Origin: Prochlorococcus marinus str. MIT 9515
GTDB taxonomy: Bacteria; Cyanobacteriota; Cyanobacteriia; PCC-6307; Cyanobiaceae
Length of the DNA stretch: 64,000 bases
Direction of reading: 5' to 3'
Assembly (NCBI RefSeq): GCF_000015665.1
Contig: NC_008817.1
Span: forward strand, 248,001-312,000
Made by a program: the position numbers and the translations under genes. Below are positions 1,463-12,289 of this stretch, in pieces. Positions within the stretch are counted from its first letter, which is position 1. Every line of letters begins with the position of its first letter. Below the pieces are notes generated by a model. The model made no database searches. It was not told the origin of the DNA and was given only the letters and a program-made list of their open reading frames with translations.

Positions 1463-4360
1463 ATGAAACCCAAAAATAATAAAGATAAAAAATCTAAGTT
1501 TTCCTATAAAGAGACATTAAATTTGCTGAAGACTGATTTTTCAATGCGAGCTAATTCAGTAAGTAGGGAACCTCAAATACAGGAATTCTGGTTGAAAAAT
1601 AAGATTGATTTGGAATTGGGTTCATCGAATTTAGGTGAAAAATTTACTTTGCACGATGGGCCTCCTTATGCAAATGGTTCTCTTCATATGGGACATGCTT
1701 TAAATAAAGTTTTAAAGGATATTATTAATAAATATAAAACTCTTAAGGGATTCAAGGTTCATTTTGTCCCTGGTTGGGATTGTCATGGATTACCAATTGA
1801 ATTAAAAGTCTTACAGAGTTTAAAATCTCATGAAAGAAAAGATTTAGATTCTTTAGGATTAAGAAAAAAAGCGACAGATTACGCAAAGATTCAGATAAAA
1901 AATCAACTAGAGGGTTTTAAGAGATGGGGTATATGGGGAGACTGGGATAATCCATATTTAACTCTTAAGAATAATTATGAATCTGCCCAAATTGGTGTTT
2001 TTGGAAAGATGTTCTTAAATGGCTATATATATAGAGGTTTAAAACCTGTTCATTGGAGTCCAAGTTCTAGAACAGCACTTGCAGAAGCAGAACTAGAATA
2101 TCCAGAAGAGCATTATTCAAGTAGTGTTTATGTATCTTTAAATATTTCTAACTTATCAGATGAAATTCTCTTGAAGTTAGAAGAAAAGGATCTTAAGAAT
2201 AAATTACTTTCTAATTTAAATAAACTATTTATAGCTATATGGACAACCACACCCTGGACTATTCCAGGTAATGAAGCAGTAGCTATTAATCCAAGAATAA
2301 ATTATGTTTTTGCCGAAGATCAAAATGGTGATATATTTCTCTTTGCAAAAGATTTAATTTCTGAGATTTCTGAGAAATTAGAAAGAGAATTCAATACTTT
2401 AATAGATGTAAAAGGTTCAATGCTTACCGGCATCGAGTATAAACATCCTACAAAAAATAAGTTTTGCAATATTGTAATAGGAGGTGATTACATAACAACA
2501 GAATCTGGGACAGGAATTGTACATACTGCACCGGGTCATGGTATGGATGATTTTAATGTTGGCAAAAAATATCATTTACCTATAACTTGTATTGTTGATG
2601 AAAAAGGTAATTTAAATAATCATGCTGAAAAATTTTGCGGATTAAATGTTTTAAAAGATGCGAATGATTTGATTATTGAGGATTTAAAGAAAAATAATTT
2701 ACTACTTTTAAAAGAAAAATATAAGCATAGATATCCATATGATTGGAGAACTAAAAAACCTACAATATTTAGAGCTACTGAACAATGGTTTGCATCTGTA
2801 GAAGGATTTAGATCCTCAGCTTTGAAAGCAATCGAGGATGTTGAATGGATGCCGAAAACAGGAAAAAAAAGAATTTATTCGATGGTTGTTGGAAGAGGAG
2901 ATTGGTGTATTTCTAGGCAACGGTCTTGGGGCGTACCAATACCAGTTTTCTACGAAAAAAAGGGAAAGGAAATATTACTTAATAGTGAGACTATCAATCA
3001 TATACAAAAGTTATTTAATGAGCATGGAGCAGATATATGGTGGGACTGGGATGAGAAAGATTTATTACCAAAACAATATAAAGAAGAATCTGATCGTTGG
3101 ATAAAAGGTCTAGATACCATGGATGTGTGGTTTGATTCAGGATCTAGTTGGGCCGCTGTTTGTGAGCAAAGAGAAGAATTAGCATATCCTGCTGACTTAT
3201 ATTTAGAGGGCTCTGATCAACATCGAGGTTGGTTTCAATCTTCTTTGCTAACCTCGGTAGCAGTAAATAATAAGCCGCCATATAAAAAAGTTCTAACTCA
3301 TGGATTTGCATTAGATGAAAATGGCAGAAAAATGAGTAAATCTTTAGGCAATGTTGTTGATCCAAATATTATTATTAATGGAGGTTCTAATCAGAAAATC
3401 CAACCCGCTTATGGAGCTGATGTCCTTCGGCTTTGGGTGAGTTCTGTAGATTATTCAGTTGACGTCCCGATTGGATCTAACATTTTAAAACAATTATCGG
3501 ATGTTTATAGAAAAGTAAGAAATACAGCCAGATATCTTTTAGGTAATATTCATGATTATGATCCAATTGACGAGGAAATTGATATCGATCAGTTGCCGAT
3601 ATTAGATCAATGGATGTTAAATAGATTAGTTGATGTCTCGGATCAAATAACAATTGCATATGAAAATTACGAATTCTCGAAGTTTTTTCAAATATTGCAA
3701 AGTTTTTGTGTTGTTGATTTATCCAATTTTTACTTGGATATTGCAAAAGATAGGTTATATGTAAGTGCTAAATCTTCGATAAGGAGAAGAACTTGCCAAT
3801 TTGTGATGTCTAAAATTGTAGAAAATTTAGCGGTTCTTATTTCGCCGGTACTTTGTCATATGGCTGAAGATATTTGGCAAAATATTCCATATTCAACTAA
3901 TGAAAAATCTGTATTTGAACGAGGATGGCCAAATTTGCCAAAGTCATGGATTAATCCTGAACTTAATGAACGTATTTCTAATCTAAGAAAATTGAGAGTG
4001 GAAATTAATAAAGCTATAGAGGGATGTAGAACCCAGCAAATAATTGGAGCTGCTCTCGAAACAGAGGTTAATTATCTCCCTGAAAACGAAATAATTAAAA
4101 ATTCTCTTTCTTGGCTTGAAAAATTTGGTAACAAGGAAGTTGATTTATATAGTGATTGGTTGATAGTTTCTAAGTTCAATGTCGTAAATAATTTATTTGA
4201 GGATTATTTAATTATCGATGATAACGAACTTGGAAAGATTCAAATTCTTAAAGCAAAAGGTCAGAAATGTGATAGATGTTGGCATTATCAAAGTAACACT
4301 GTGATGGGCATTGAAGATACCAAATTATGCAAGAGATGTGCAAATATTATTACCAGTTAA
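1463..4360 (+). CDS. ileS: isoleucyl-tRNA synthetase
   Basis: Charges tRNA-Ile in the cytoplasm; a class I synthetase of 965 residues, normal bacterial length. The HIGH motif appears as HMGH at residues 75-78 after PPYANGSL. The editing domain includes the [11 protein letters not shown] motif. KMSKS lies near residue 622. The C-terminus carries a zinc-binding CDRCWHY...CKRC element, so this is the bacterial type with an intact C-terminal zinc finger. Start is ATG at 1463. The gene converges on the DUF7734-like gene, 9 bp apart. Confidence 0.98.
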
Positions 4361-7537: not shown

Positions 7538-8086
7538 ATGATGCAATCTGGAAATAAAGAATCATTTTTAAATCTCTCACAAAAGTCGATACTGATATTA
7601 TCTTTTACTCTCATTATTGGATCTCTACTCTTATTCAAAAATCTAGTATTTCAACCTAACTTTCTTCTTAAAAAATTTGGAGAATTAACTATTGATCCTG
7701 AGATAGCTTTTACAAACAAAAAACCTACTTTTCTTGAATTTTATGCAGAGTGGTGTGAAGTTTGTAAAGAAATGGCGCCAAGTGTTGCTGACATTAAAGA
7801 AGAATACGAAAAAGATATTAATTTTGTTTTTTTAAATGTAGATAATCCTAAATGGGAAAAATACATAAGAAATTTTAATGTTAATGGAATTCCACAAGTA
7901 AATCTTTTTGATGAAGACGCTAACCTAGAAGTTACGTTTATTGGTAAACAGCAAGAAAAAACTATAAAAGAATCTCTTGATAATTTATATGAACATTCTC
8001 AAAGTAATCTACAAATTTTAAATACTGAATTTTCTAAGATCAGAGACAACAAAAATTATCAGACTTCTCCAAGAAGTCACGGATAA
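7538..8086 (+). CDS. txlA: thioredoxin-like protein TxlA (HCF164-like), membrane anchored
   Basis: An N-terminal hydrophobic segment (about residues 17-38) anchors a thioredoxin fold with active site WCEVC in FYAEWCEVCKEMAP. The cis-proline region is VNGIPQVNLF. The family passes reducing equivalents across the thylakoid or plasma membrane for cytochrome and photosystem assembly, as plant HCF164 does. TTG ATG ATG occurs at 7535-7543; I chose the first ATG (7538). It converges on thyX, 2 bp apart. Confidence 0.85.
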   Translation: MMQSGNKESFLNLSQKSILILSFTLIIGSLLLFKNLVFQPNFLLKKFGELTIDPEIAFTNKKPTFLEFYAEWCEVCKEMAPSVADIKEEYEKDINFVFLNVDNPKWEKYIRNFNVNGIPQVNLFDEDANLEVTFIGKQQEKTIKESLDNLYEHSQSNLQILNTEFSKIRDNKNYQTSPRSHG

Positions 8087-8088
8087 TT

Positions 8089-8727
8089 TTATTCCCAATT
8101 CAGTGCTTCAGATACAGATGGAAAAGATTTGATAAATACTGTCTTACAATCTTCAGCTATTTCCATATGTTCTTTTTGCGTTCCTTCTTTTGATCTTAAT
8201 TGTATATAGTGAATCCAAGACCTACAGGAACCTGTCATATAAATTCTGGTTGGAGTAGCCAATGGCATAATAAATCTTGCACATTCCTTTGCTATCCCTG
8301 CATTAAGCATTTCTTCATATAAATTATTTGCCTCTTGAAAATGTTTTTCAATTTTTTCTGAAAATTTGCTTTTAACTTCATTAGGTATATCATCCATACT
8401 ATTTTGACGATTCTTTTTATCTTGTCTCCTTAATTCTGGGATAGGAATGTCATTTCCTAGTAAATTAGTTTCTGCATATCTTTGGGAGAATTCTTGAAAA
8501 GTAAATGATCTATGTCTAAGAATTTGAGCAGCTATACCTCTATTAGTCTCAATTTTTAATGTCATACATGATTGCTCAAAAACAGACCAGTGCTCATGTT
8601 GAATACAATATCTTAATAATCCTGCAAATTTATCATTATCTTGATTAGAAGGATTAGAAACTCTGGCTATAAAAGCCATTGTTTTTTCCGCATCTGGAGT
8701 TAGTGTAATAAGCTCAACTCTACTCAT
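8089..8727 (-). CDS. thyX: flavin-dependent thymidylate synthase
   Basis: Makes dTMP from dUMP with FAD and methylene-tetrahydrofolate. 212 residues. The ThyX signature reads RHRSFTFQEFSQRY near residues 73-86; the usual RHRxxSxxxxSxR has Thr in place of the first Ser. A second conserved region is the C-terminal TGSCRSWIHYIQLR. It follows dcd by one base and a cobO-like gene, a compact deoxynucleotide operon. No thyA is present in the window. Confidence 0.96.
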   Translation of the reverse strand: MSRVELITLTPDAEKTMAFIARVSNPSNQDNDKFAGLLRYCIQHEHWSVFEQSCMTLKIETNRGIAAQILRHRSFTFQEFSQRYAETNLLGNDIPIPELRRQDKKNRQNSMDDIPNEVKSKFSEKIEKHFQEANNLYEEMLNAGIAKECARFIMPLATPTRIYMTGSCRSWIHYIQLRSKEGTQKEHMEIAEDCKTVFIKSFPSVSEALNWE

Positions 8728-8728
8728 T

Positions 8729-9322
8729 TTAAATTTTGGCTAAAGTTACTTGTTCTGGTTGATTTTGATATTTACCTTTCCTATCTTCATACGTTGTAGA
8801 ACAGGGATCACCCTCAAAAAACAATAGTTGACAAATACCTTCATTTGCATAAATTCTACAATCAGCACCAGAACTGTTACTGAATTCTAATGTAAGGTGC
8901 CCCTCCCATCCGGCTTCCGCTGGGGTTGTGTTTACTATTATTCCAAGACGGGCATAAGTACTTTTACCAATACATATAACAGTAATATTTTCTGGCACTT
9001 TCATTTTTTCTAGAGCGACACCCAAGCCATAAGAATGAGCAGGTAAAATAAAAAACTCACCATCTTTGTCTTTATGAAGAACAGTTTTTTCTAAATTATC
9101 AGGATTAAACTTCTTTGGATTCATAACAGTTCCCGGGACATGCTTAAATATTAAAAACTCTTTAGAAGAAAGTCTTAAATCATAGCCATATGATGAACAG
9201 CCATAACTTAAAACTGCGTTTTTTTTCAGAGTTGGATCAAGGTGTCTTACCAAGTTTGATTGGAAAGGGTTGATCATTCCTTCGGAAGCTTTTTGGTTTA
9301 TCCAGAGATCATTTTTCAGCAT
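8729..9322 (-). CDS. dcd: dCTP deaminase
   Basis: Converts dCTP to dUTP, the main bacterial route to dUMP for thymidylate. 197 residues of the trimeric dUTPase fold. The signature GKSTYARLGI is followed by TTPAEAGWEGHLTLEFSN, which contains the catalytic Glu in WEG...E. The start is 5 bp after the cobO-like stop, and the stop is one base before thyX, so dCTP deamination and dTMP synthesis are transcriptionally linked. Confidence 0.95.
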   Translation of the reverse strand: MLKNDLWINQKASEGMINPFQSNLVRHLDPTLKKNAVLSYGCSSYGYDLRLSSKEFLIFKHVPGTVMNPKKFNPDNLEKTVLHKDKDGEFFILPAHSYGLGVALEKMKVPENITVICIGKSTYARLGIIVNTTPAEAGWEGHLTLEFSNSSGADCRIYANEGICQLLFFEGDPCSTTYEDRKGKYQNQPEQVTLAKI

Positions 9323-9327
9323 AATTT

Positions 9328-9906
9328 TTATGAGCGAAGCTCTGTAATTTGGTCAGCCATTAATAAGAAATTTTTAGGAATGTTTGTACCAGTAAGGATT
9401 ACATCTCCAGTTATGAATCGGTTTTGAAGTGTTGAAATCAAATCATCTTTACTTATGATATTTAATTCCAAAGCTAGAAAAATTTCATCTAGGATAATTT
9501 GATCATATTCTCCAGATAATAATTCTTTTTTACAGAAATCCCATAATTCATTAATGGAATGATTAATCGATTTTGCCAGGTTTTCATTACTTGCTATTTC
9601 TTCGGGTTCATATTGATCATAAGAATTTGATGATCTTATCCACGTTAGGTTCCCGCAAAGCTTTTGTGCATTGACAATACCTTGTTTTACACCTCCCTTC
9701 ATTAATTGTACTAAAAGAACTTTTCTTCCTAAAGCTGCATTCCTTAGTGAATCTCGGATAATAGATGAATAACTTCCTCTGTAAGAAGATTGATAAATCT
9801 GAATTTGACCATTATGATTTGGCCTTCTTAATTTAGATTCTTTATTATTTATATTTACAACTTGCTGATTACTTGTTGAATAACTTTTTAATGAGCTGAC
9901 TGACAT
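9328..9906 (-). CDS. cobO: CobO/BtuR-like cob(I)alamin adenosyltransferase homologue with degenerate P-loop
   Basis: 192 residues with the overall CobO/BtuR pattern: a first strand QIQIYQ, then VLLVQLMKGG near residues 63-72, IILDEIFLALELNII near 143-157, and a C-terminal ILTGTNIPKNFLLMADQITE that aligns with the family's ILTGR..P..L...AD..TE end. The ATP-binding P-loop (normally GxGKGKTT after the first strand) is replaced by SSYRGSYSS at about 40-48, with no GK[ST]. It may have lost or changed ATP binding. It heads the operon with dcd and thyX and is divergent from ntcA. The family link is recalled; whether it is still an adenosyltransferase is open. Confidence 0.7.
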   Translation of the reverse strand: MSVSSLKSYSTSNQQVVNINNKESKLRRPNHNGQIQIYQSSYRGSYSSIIRDSLRNAALGRKVLLVQLMKGGVKQGIVNAQKLCGNLTWIRSSNSYDQYEPEEIASNENLAKSINHSINELWDFCKKELLSGEYDQIILDEIFLALELNIISKDDLISTLQNRFITGDVILTGTNIPKNFLLMADQITELRS

Positions 9907-9969
9907 TATTTAGATTAACTTTATCTACATTAAGTATAATTTGAATTTAAGTACGCTGCATATAGTGTA

Positions 9970-9983
9970 ACCTTACTTAAGGT
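9970..9983. promoter_or_regulatory. inverted repeat in the cobO-like/ntcA divergent intergenic region
   Basis: ACCTTA, a 2-base spacer CT, then TAAGGT: a perfect 6+6 inverted repeat. It sits 63 bp upstream of the cobO-like start and 109 bp upstream of the chosen ntcA ATG. A near match to the NtcA half-site layout (GTA-N8-TAA at 9967-9980, one base off GTA-N8-TAC) overlaps it. It may be an operator or an autoregulatory site; this is inference only. Confidence 0.35.
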
Positions 9984-10092
9984 AGGCATCCAGAAAAGAG
10001 AATTTAAAAAAAACATAAGATATTAGAAACTGTTACTGTTGATACAAGATATTTTCATCTGTCTCCTTAAATTTTTATTAGTAAAGAGATTC

Positions 10093-10827
10093 ATGTTGCC
10101 AACTTCTAGAGGATTTAATCGCTCCACTCAGCAACCATCCGGACAAAATACCATTAATACCGTTGGGGAAAGATTTCCAATTAATAAAACTTTAATGGAA
10201 GTAATAAAGGGCCTTGAAGGAGCCAGTACAGAAATGGTTGAAAGATCGAAAACAATATTTTCCCCTGGAGATCCTGCTGAGAGAGTTTACTTAATAAGAA
10301 GAGGAGCCGTCAGATTATCAAGAGTTTACGAATCTGGAGAAGAAATTACTGTTGCATTGTTAAGAGAAAATAGCCTGTTTGGCGTCTTATCTCTTTTAAC
10401 AGGACATAGGTCTGATCGTTTTTATCATGCAATAGCTTTTACGAGAGTTGAAGTGATTACGGCTCCTGCCAATTCTGTTTTGAGAGCAATTGAAGCAGAT
10501 GCATCTGTTGGTCTTTTACTATTGCAAGGCCTTTCAAGCAGGATTCTACAAACAGAAACAATGATTGAAACCCTCACACATAGAGATATGTCATCTCGCC
10601 TAGTAAGTTTTTTGATGGTTTTGTGTCGAGATTTTGGAGTGGCAAGTAAAAAGGGCATTACTATAGATTTGAAACTTTCTCATCAAGCAATAGCAGAGGC
10701 AATAGGTTCAACGAGAGTAACAATTACAAGATTATTAGGAGATTTGAAGGATTCAGGATTACTTACTATTGAAAAGAAAAAGATTACAGTTTTTGATCCA
10801 ATAGCACTTGCAAAAAGATTTAATTGA
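10093..10827 (+). CDS. ntcA: global nitrogen regulator NtcA (CRP family)
   Basis: CRP/FNR-family transcription factor that reads nitrogen status through 2-oxoglutarate and binds GTA-N8-TAC sites. 244 residues from [11 protein letters not shown]. The cyclic-nucleotide-type sensor domain contains [23 protein letters not shown] in positions 50-80. The dimer helix is about residues 130-160. The C-terminal helix-turn-helix is [22 protein letters not shown] chose ATG 10093; the in-frame extension to 10039 adds 18 residues with no family resemblance. It is divergent from the cobO-like/dcd/thyX operon and followed by the DUF3084 gene 52 bp later. Confidence 0.96.
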
Positions 10828-10879
10828 AAATTAATCAATTAATTATCTATTATGTTATTAGTAAATAAATACAAATATT

Positions 10880-11851
10880 GTGTCTGGTTGGCTTTTTATT
10901 ATTTTTTTATTATTACTTGGAGGTTTAATTTCAACATTAGGTGACTTGTTAGGTTCCAAGATTGGTAAAGCTAGATTTAGTGTTTTAAAATTAAGACCAA
11001 AAAAAACTGCAATTTTAATAACAATTTTGACTGGTAGCTTGATAAGCGCATCATCATTATTCCTAATGATATTAGTAAATAGACAGCTAAGAGTAGGCCT
11101 TTTCAAGTTAGGCGATCTACAGAAAAAACTTCAGGAAAGTAAACAAGTTTTGATACCTTTAAAAAAAGAAAGATCAATATTAGAAAATAAAATTAAAGCT
11201 AAAGAGACAGAATTCAAACAACTTGAAAGGAATATAATAGCTTTAAGGAGTGGCAAATTTGTTATTAGAAGTGGGCAATCTTTAATTATTTCCGAAATTA
11301 CTTCCTCTAGCCAAGAGGATATTAAATCTCAAATAGAAAATATTATTATCAATGCCAATAAATACACTCACAAGATAGTAAAGCCAGAAAGTAAAAATAT
11401 TAAAAATTTATTGTTATTAAGAAAAAATCATATTGAAGAGATGCAAAATACTATTTTAAAAGGTGGTAATTGGGTTATTAATATAAAATCTGTCAGGAAT
11501 GTTTTAAAAGGTGAAAATTATGTTTATGCTTTTCCCGAGATAACAGAGAACAAAATAATAGTTAGAAAAGGTGAAAAAATCACGAAAATTGATTTCAAAG
11601 AAGAAAATTTTAATAAAAAAGATTTTGGTGATAAGGTCAATTTCTTACTTTCCTCTAGTTTGGCTGAAGTTAAGAGAAGAGGTTCTCTTACAAATGAAAT
11701 AAAATTGCGAAGCGATTCTGTTAAAGAATTACGAGATTTCTTAAACAAAAATGATAAAATTAATTTTGAATTAGAAGCAGTATCTATTAGTAATAGCAAG
11801 ACAGCGCAACCTGTAATTATTAAATTAAATATAAATTATCCACAATCTTAA
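10880..11851 (+). CDS. DUF3084 family membrane/coiled-coil protein
   Basis: 323 residues starting at GTG 10880. Two transmembrane segments occur at about 3-22 and 47-68, joined by the conserved LLGSKIGKARFSVLKLRPKK loop. A coiled coil follows at about 77-125 (KLQESKQVLIPLKKERSILE...), then a mixed alpha/beta C-terminal domain. This is the cyanobacterial DUF3084 architecture; its function is not known. Its stop codon directly abuts the start of the RuvC-like gene (TAA then ATG), so the two are probably co-translated. Confidence 0.75.
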   Translation: MSGWLFIIFLLLLGGLISTLGDLLGSKIGKARFSVLKLRPKKTAILITILTGSLISASSLFLMILVNRQLRVGLFKLGDLQKKLQESKQVLIPLKKERSILENKIKAKETEFKQLERNIIALRSGKFVIRSGQSLIISEITSSSQEDIKSQIENIIINANKYTHKIVKPESKNIKNLLLLRKNHIEEMQNTILKGGNWVINIKSVRNVLKGENYVYAFPEITENKIIVRKGEKITKIDFKEENFNKKDFGDKVNFLLSSSLAEVKRRGSLTNEIKLRSDSVKELRDFLNKNDKINFELEAVSISNSKTAQPVIIKLNINYPQS

Positions 11852-12289
11852 ATGTCTATAATTTTAGCTATTGATCCCGGTATATCGAAATGTGGAGTAA
11901 TAGTAGCTGACCTAACAGAAAAAAAAGTTTATGAAGCAGTAGTTATAAATAGCTGTTTACTTTTAAAATACGTAAAAAAAAAATATCAAGACCAAAAAAA
12001 TATTCAATGTCTCATTGGTAATGGAACAAGCAGTGAAATTTATATAAATGACTTGAATCAAATGGTACCTAATGTGATCATTGCTGAAGAAAAAAATTCA
12101 ACTTTTAGAGCCAAGCAAAGATATTTTGAAATTTTCCCCTTATTGGGGATCAAATGTTTTTTGCCCAGAGAAATATTTATTTTGAATAAAAATTTAGATG
12201 CATTAGCTGCATTAATTATCATGGAGGATTATTTCCAAGTTAAATTTGATTTCAGTAAAAAAATTAAAACTAAAACTTGGCTGAAATAG
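11852..12289 (+). CDS. RuvC/YqgF-like RNase H-fold protein
   Basis: 145 residues. The N-terminal IILAIDPGISKCG is the first strand and catalytic-Asp motif of RuvC/RuvX-type nucleases. Later come LIGNGTSS (strand 4), VIIAEEKNS with an acidic pair, and LNKNLDALAALIIM with the final Asp. The acidic residues expected of the fold are thus present. It is too short and divergent to be RuvC itself and lacks the RuvX sequence pattern, so the substrate is unknown. It abuts DUF3084 with no gap. Its 3' end overlaps the convergent DUF3146 gene by 20 bp. Confidence 0.65.
   Translation: MSIILAIDPGISKCGVIVADLTEKKVYEAVVINSCLLLKYVKKKYQDQKNIQCLIGNGTSSEIYINDLNQMVPNVIIAEEKNSTFRAKQRYFEIFPLLGIKCFLPREIFILNKNLDALAALIIMEDYFQVKFDFSKKIKTKTWLK

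Follow-up and report, generated by a model that had tools for sequence, protein, structure and literature searches.

A P-loop-less paralogue of the CobA fold beside dcd in cyanobacteria and its association with class II ribonucleotide reductase

The DNA analysed here, referred to as the window, is a stretch of 64,000 nucleotides from the genome of Prochlorococcus marinus MIT 9515. It contains an open reading frame for a CobO-like protein of 192 aa, followed on the same strand by dcd and thyX and flanked upstream by the divergent gene ntcA (Table 1). A reading made from the sequence alone had described this protein as one that lost its P-loop, kept the other landmarks of its family and heads a dcd-thyX operon. 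The tight spacing and common strand of the three genes bear out the operon, and the landmarks VQLMKGG, LDEIFLALE and ILTGTNIP..ADQITELRS all lie within the 192-aa frame.

Table 1. Features of the MIT 9515 locus, in positions of the window
Feature	Position	Strand	Basis
P-loop-less CobA/CobO-fold protein, 192 aa	9328..9906	-	ATG start; PF02572, NF005648, AF2 model
Codons of residues 40-47, SSYRGSYS, former P-loop	9766..9789	-	alignment to CobA residues 36-43
Ser45 codon, at the Walker lysine position	9772-9774	-	alignment to CobA
Walker-B-like LDE codons, residues 139-141, retained	9484..9492	-	L in 146, D in 145, E in 147 of 147 rows
dcd, dCTP deaminase, operon gene 2, gap of 5 bp	8729..9322	-	TIGR02274, 121.2 bits, cut-off 92.8
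thyX, FAD-dependent thymidylate synthase, operon gene 3, gap of 1 bp	8089..8727	-	TIGR02170, 178.9 bits, cut-off 87.9
Terminator-like hairpin 3' of thyX	8062..8078	-	consensus match only
ntcA, divergent upstream neighbour, start codon not settled	10099..10827	+	TIGR03697, 358.8 bits

Profile searches gave the 192-aa protein 75.7 bits against PF02572 (CobA/CobO/BtuR), for which the cut-off is 25.7, so its kinship to this family is not due to chance. The best NCBIfam model was NF005648/PRK07414 at 129.7 bits, under the cut-off of 248, and the label 'PRK07414-type' used below therefore comes from alignment and the common adjacency to dcd, not from that cut-off. Against NF005647, the model of the tandem PRK07413, it scored 39.4 bits over a single domain, where the model demands 426 bits and two domains. 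The predicted AF2 structure (mean pLDDT 80.8; residues 1-27 below 50) resembles Salmonella CobA (4hut) with a Z of 18.3 over 153 residues at an rmsd of 3.6; the next family in this comparison was RecA (Z 11.4), with others at around 11. In four pairs of Prochlorococcus, dN/dS of the PRK07414-type gene was 0.14-0.20, compared with 0.01-0.06 for dcd and 0.03-0.10 for thyX, meaning that it is constrained, yet evolves faster than its two neighbours.

Where Salmonella CobA carries GNGKGKTT (residues 36-43), the MIT 9515 protein has SSYRGSYS, as the sequence-only reading had it, and a search for a nucleotide loop elsewhere in the protein found GK[ST] in none of 149 family members. We aligned 147 PRK07414-type sequences, a few genomes (G040, G043 and G023) being entered twice, and left out two incomplete sequences (L025 and L146), one of 121 bits (L154) and the two from the MIT 9515 window itself (L004 and L035). 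The column of the Walker lysine, which is K in 7/7 CobO rows, holds F in 106, S in 37, L in two, N in one and M in one of the PRK07414-type rows, and lysine in none. A different set of residues is conserved instead: an arginine (R43) at the position of CobA Lys39 in 145/147 rows, Q75 and R91 in all 147, D168 in 145 and Q186 in 146, each of which differs in the seven CobO rows. W89, common to five of the seven CobO rows, and E141 of the LDE motif are also present in all 147. Phe91 and Trp93 of CobA, reportedly critical there (the title of a 2012 study by Moore says as much), are replaced by Tyr96 and Gln98 in MIT 9515; across the alignment, Phe occupies the first position in 19/147 rows and Trp the second in none. 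This replacement argues against a corrinoid pose like that of CobA.

The absence of the P-loop is confined neither to the MIT 9515 gene nor to marine picocyanobacteria, and in this respect the reading needs widening, as relatives in the other cyanobacterial families sampled are also without it. The loop is replaced in 21 of 22 loci from outside the Cyanobiaceae (L005-L024 and L026; the sequence of the 22nd, L025, ends before the loop and is uninformative) and likewise in the other Cyanobiaceae loci of that locus set, which rules out a recent loss in Prochlorococcus. As judged by alignment, a P-loop-less paralogue runs through the cyanobacterial class, and the family reads as a repurposing of the CobA fold, not as its decay. 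Three genomes of family f1 (G068, G122 and G160) have a longer frame of 256-387 aa, in which an insertion separates the two halves of the domain; these were scored as having the gene.

The MIT 9515 genome (one contig, 1,704,176 bases) encodes four PF02572 domains in three proteins. Besides the 192-aa protein, these are a single-domain CobO with an intact GNGKGKTT and a tandem PRK07413 of 386 aa (771 bits) with GxGKGKS P-loops in both halves; a profile search of the genome for PF01923 (PduO/EutT-type) gave no match. The two P-loop-intact proteins answer the question of a second adenosyltransferase and rule out the 192-aa protein as the cell's only one for corrinoids, and because of them the PRK07414-type gene is not needed for the adenosyltransferase reaction. 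The B12-dependent ribonucleotide reductase (RNR) that the earlier reading had invoked is indeed encoded in this genome, as a class II enzyme of the RTPR type, adenosylcobalamin-dependent and 777 aa long (863 bits), and a profile search for NrdB found no match. That the PRK07414-type protein is an adenosyltransferase is unlikely. In particular, an ATP:corrinoid adenosyltransferase with an unorthodox loop, an idea to which the retained fold, the LDE motif and the near-constant arginine at the Lys39 position could lend something, is scarcely credible when F, S, L, N or M replaces the Walker lysine in every one of the 147 rows and one genome holds both CobO and the tandem in intact form as well.

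We then examined the PRK07414-type gene in a class-wide draw of 97 genomes, where it was present in 93 and missing in G057, G243, G248 and G250. A full dcd, defined as a TIGR02274 match of about 82 bits or more with shorter dUTPase-like matches uncounted, lies on the same strand within 1.5 kb downstream (an interval that allows a small intervening gene) in 56 of the 81 genomes with both genes, representing 18 of 24 families; it is not close in the remaining 25, and another 12 genomes keep the PRK07414-type gene without a full dcd. Among 80 named loci, mostly from Nostoc and allies and Leptolyngbya-like cyanobacteria, dcd is the next gene in 52 and the most constant neighbour. An adenylate-kinase-like gene, typed from one representative of its cluster, is found in 62 of these loci, in 59 of which it is the immediate neighbour on the divergent side. 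Adjacency to ntcA was seen only in Cyanobiaceae, and no cobalamin-synthesis gene appeared as a constant neighbour, among the loci compared. Several loci without dcd carry instead a dCMP deaminase, a deoxyribosyltransferase-like protein, a DCD/dUTPase-like protein and an archaeal-type thymidylate synthase; this alternative module is described and not counted here, since one gene cluster (cluster 6) mixes dCMP deaminase, deoxyribosyltransferase-like and DCD-like proteins and only representatives were typed. The setting of the PRK07414-type gene is dUMP/dTMP synthesis. At L076 (positions 8558-11900) and the similar L079, L085 and L126, dcd is replaced by convergent genes for the dCMP deaminase, the nucleoside 2-deoxyribosyltransferase-like and DCD/dUTPase-like proteins and the thymidylate synthase, which has MtrA- and pterin-binding-like parts; the entire dTMP route appears to have been exchanged at one place.

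RNR was the adenosylcobalamin-using enzyme surveyed across genomes. The PRK07414-type gene is present in 99/102 genomes with a class II RNR, compared with 0/39 with a class I RNR alone. Within the class-wide draw, NrdB (class I) was found in three of the 97 genomes: G057 and G243, which have neither a class II RNR nor the PRK07414-type gene, and G044, which has both classes and kept the gene. In G057, the adk-like gene and dcd lie 200 bp apart, and the PRK07414-type gene is missing from its usual place between them. A search of 388 genomes for NrdB retrieved 44 over the cut-off. Thirty-eight of these, from ten families, are without RTPR (best score 34 bits) and without the PRK07414-type gene (0/38), their best NF005648 score of 78 bits being at the level of CobO; the other six have RTPR too, and five of the six keep the gene. 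In a search of 151 Cyanobiaceae genomes, G090 and G132 gave nothing better than CobO-level matches. G090, which lacks the PRK07414-type gene, has NrdA and NrdB side by side; its apparent standing as a class II exception (TIGR02504, 396 bits) was ruled out by a PRK07207 score of 1278 bits, which together with the adjoining NrdB identifies class I. The other Cyanobiaceae of this search lie outside the 99/102 and 0/39 counts.

Some assignments in these counts deserve comment. Four RTPR-negative genomes with the gene (G215, G227, G239 and G255) are not counter-examples, as each encodes a class II NrdJ of the dimeric kind that passes the TIGR02504 cut-off, G227 being the one among these dimeric cases that was also typed against all models. 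G044, G048, G051 and G236 were scored as class II on evidence under the curated cut-off; G048 has a dimeric NrdJ below cut-off within a frame of 1601 aa, and RTPR of G236 and G051 is below cut-off or in pieces. Left out of both counts were G100, whose PRK07414-type copy extends over two frames, G384, with NrdB below cut-off, G132, which is 95% complete and has a tandem-like frame but no RTPR, NrdJ_Z or PRK07414-type copy, and G210, which has the PRK07414-type gene, yet gave no match to RTPR, NrdJ_Z or NrdB and whose assembly is listed as 8% contaminated. The three class II genomes without the gene are G248 and G250, which also lack a full dcd and have a tandem-like frame, and G474, which has its RTPR in two frames (L174:1716-2960 and 3187-4278), has no tandem and was scored as class II. 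Class II RNRs split into at least two frames near RTPR residues 350-420 were also seen in G043, G042, G222 and G233, and may be split genes, split inteins or broken genes. G248 (4.2 Mb, one contig) has its tandem-like PRK07413 match in a frame of 398 aa and no separate CobO match, and is possibly a corrinoid salvager with the tandem as its only adenosyltransferase.

The sequence-only reading had also suggested a link between cobalamin supply and deoxynucleotide synthesis. Of this, the tie to deoxynucleotide synthesis and to a B12-dependent RNR stands on the 99/102 and 0/39 counts, and 'cobalamin supply' is not borne out, as a single CobO-type match persists in 34 of the 39 class-I-only genomes, from which the PRK07414-type gene is gone. 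Retention nearly only alongside a B12-dependent RNR in the genomes sampled suggests that the protein serves RNR rather than B12 synthesis. Two simpler accounts are each weakened by genomes of the draw: a link to dcd with RNR class incidental by G057 and G243, which have dcd and lack the PRK07414-type gene, and a link to RNR only by G248 and G250, in which a class II RNR occurs with neither a full dcd nor the gene.

The same genomes bear on the main rival to a role in cofactor handling, namely that the protein senses nucleotides or is an allosteric partner to Dcd and/or NrdJ, in which case its P-loop-less RecA-like fold would bind a deoxynucleotide at a new site and tune dCTP/dUTP production. 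Such a protein would fit the constancy of dcd as a neighbour (56/81 genomes; the next gene in 52/80 named loci), the gathering of dUTPase-like, dCMP deaminase, thymidylate synthase and NMP-kinase-like genes at the locus, the new invariant residues with two arginines among them, and the joint absence of gene and full dcd from the class II genomes G248 and G250. We regard it as rather unlikely, however, given the 12 genomes that keep the gene without a full dcd, and given G057 and G243, the class-I-only pair in the draw, which have dcd and not the gene.

The tandem PRK07413 shows a similar distribution: it was not seen in the 39 class-I-only genomes, each of which has one CobO-type match or none. 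This would be expected if the PRK07414-type protein were a catalytically inactive subunit, forming a dimer with the tandem (or CobO) and regulating or stabilising it, as would the retention of the CobA fold and LDE and the P-loops in both tandem halves. Against such a subunit, a tandem-like frame occurs in G248 and G250, which lack the PRK07414-type gene, and in MIT 9515 the gene adjoins neither CobO-type gene, which leaves this explanation improbable.

The co-occurrence pattern is strong by count and thin by independent events. Fisher's exact test gives p = 1.2e-31 for the association with RNR class (a separate run took 100/103 class II genomes, with G100 still in), a value that ignores relatedness and is not usable as a test, and the counts themselves overstate the evidence because the genomes are related. 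On the best tree of 80 CobO proteins, RNR class changes eight times, and three of these changes are forced by well-supported branches. Of three independent pairs, an average of 2.8 have the PRK07414-type gene in step with RNR class (sign test, p = 0.25; significance is unreachable at n = 3). Such a small number of independent losses, together with evolution faster than that of dcd and thyX, is what one might expect of a passenger or relic that stays near dcd by gene order alone and whose loss alongside class II RNR was a lineage coincidence. This is very improbable in view of the dN/dS of 0.14-0.20, the residues invariant throughout the family, the presence of the gene in 93/97 genomes of the class and the gap in G057, which falls exactly at the usual place between conserved neighbours. 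In the same tree, CobO of GTDB family f22 (G057, G342 and G475; L205-L207) has a very long branch of 6.4 changes per column, apart from the remaining cyanobacterial CobO proteins, as if foreign.

Phage genomes were also searched. The RNR of cyanophage PSS2 is class II by profile (TIGR02505, 646.9 bits, cut-off 340) and 54% identical to that of MIT 9515, and the phage also carries a PRK07413-like tandem (49% identity) as well as dcd and thy1. Its 'cobO' is this tandem and not a PRK07414-type paralogue. Of the 68 phage records found to carry an RTPR-like gene, only the three from PSS2 have the tandem. Four of 50,697 phage records match the 192-aa protein, at 26-27% identity over around 70% of its length. 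Two contigs listed as viral (L145 and L146) have Prochlorococcus-like cobO-like, dcd and thyX genes in host order and look like host or chimeric contigs; L146 appears chimeric, with unrelated sequence at its start fused to the cobO-like frame.

Taken together, we consider a functional link of the PRK07414-type protein to class II RNR and dNTP synthesis quite likely. Counted in its favour, and in favour of the reading built on it, are the RNR-class counts, the gap in G057, the pairing with dcd, the invariant residues, dN/dS and the PSS2 tandem; counted against are the few independent events, G248 and G250, G474, G210, the 25/81 genomes in which dcd is not close, the 12 genomes that have the gene and no full dcd, the replacement of Phe91 and Trp93 and the restriction of the tandem to PSS2 among phages. 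To our knowledge, how class II RNR acquires or renews its cofactor is not settled, unlike the case of methylmalonyl-CoA mutase with MeaB. The literature matches listed included no published helper of class II RNR of the MeaB kind and no publication on the PRK07414-type family or its co-occurrence with RNR, with none for 'PRK07414'. According to PMC6370689, adenosylcobalamin is required by class II RNR and not by class I. For this reason, and because the protein has the fold of an enzyme that makes adenosylcobalamin but lacks the ATP site, a cofactor-handling accessory is favoured, although by analogy and hence tentatively. The protein may act at the cofactor step of class II RNR, where it would hold or hand over adenosyl-(pseudo)cobalamin or swap the spent cofactor, and the P-loop-intact tandem PRK07413 could be its ATP-using partner. 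As a whole, we favour (probability about 0.5) a repurposed CobA-fold paralogue for which the usual ATP-dependent adenosylation of corrinoids is not expected and which would be an accessory of dNTP synthesis with class II RNR, perhaps at a cofactor step. A more speculative extension is a dedicated cofactor service for class II RNR in cyanobacteria, in which PRK07413 and its PRK07414-type partner would load or renew adenosyl-(pseudo)cobalamin on NrdJ and, through co-expression with dcd, couple cofactor supply to the branch from dCTP to dTMP. The PRK07414-type gene, conserved in cyanobacteria and present or absent along with class II RNR, offers a concrete and testable candidate for a part in the supply or renewal of that cofactor.

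A possible working likeness is to MeaB/MMAA, the G-protein chaperone that with an adenosyltransferase delivers adenosylcobalamin to methylmalonyl-CoA mutase, according to PMC10481361, in that an accessory would help an adenosylcobalamin enzyme receive or renew its cofactor. MeaB, however, is a P-loop GTPase, and no such family is among the profile matches of the 192-aa protein. With CobA/CobO/BtuR (PF02572; Salmonella CobA 4hut and 1g64) the PRK07414-type protein has in common the fold, a Pfam profile score over the cut-off and the QxxKG and LDE motifs, but it lacks the P-loop, the Walker lysine, Phe91 and Trp93, has invariants of its own and is tied in genomes to dcd and RNR class. The members of NF005648/PRK07414 ('P-loop NTPase family protein') over the cut-off of 248 share with the MIT 9515 protein, which is under it, the gene order with dcd and the replaced loop; the name is misleading, as the aligned members have no P-loop, and labelling PF02572 proteins by homology as 'cobO' or 'P-loop NTPase' overcounts adenosyltransferases. 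The tandem cob(I)yrinic acid a,c-diamide adenosyltransferase PRK07413/NF005647 belongs to the same superfamily and was likewise unseen in class-I-only genomes, but it has two domains, each with a GxGKGKS P-loop, whereas the PRK07414-type protein has one domain and no P-loop.
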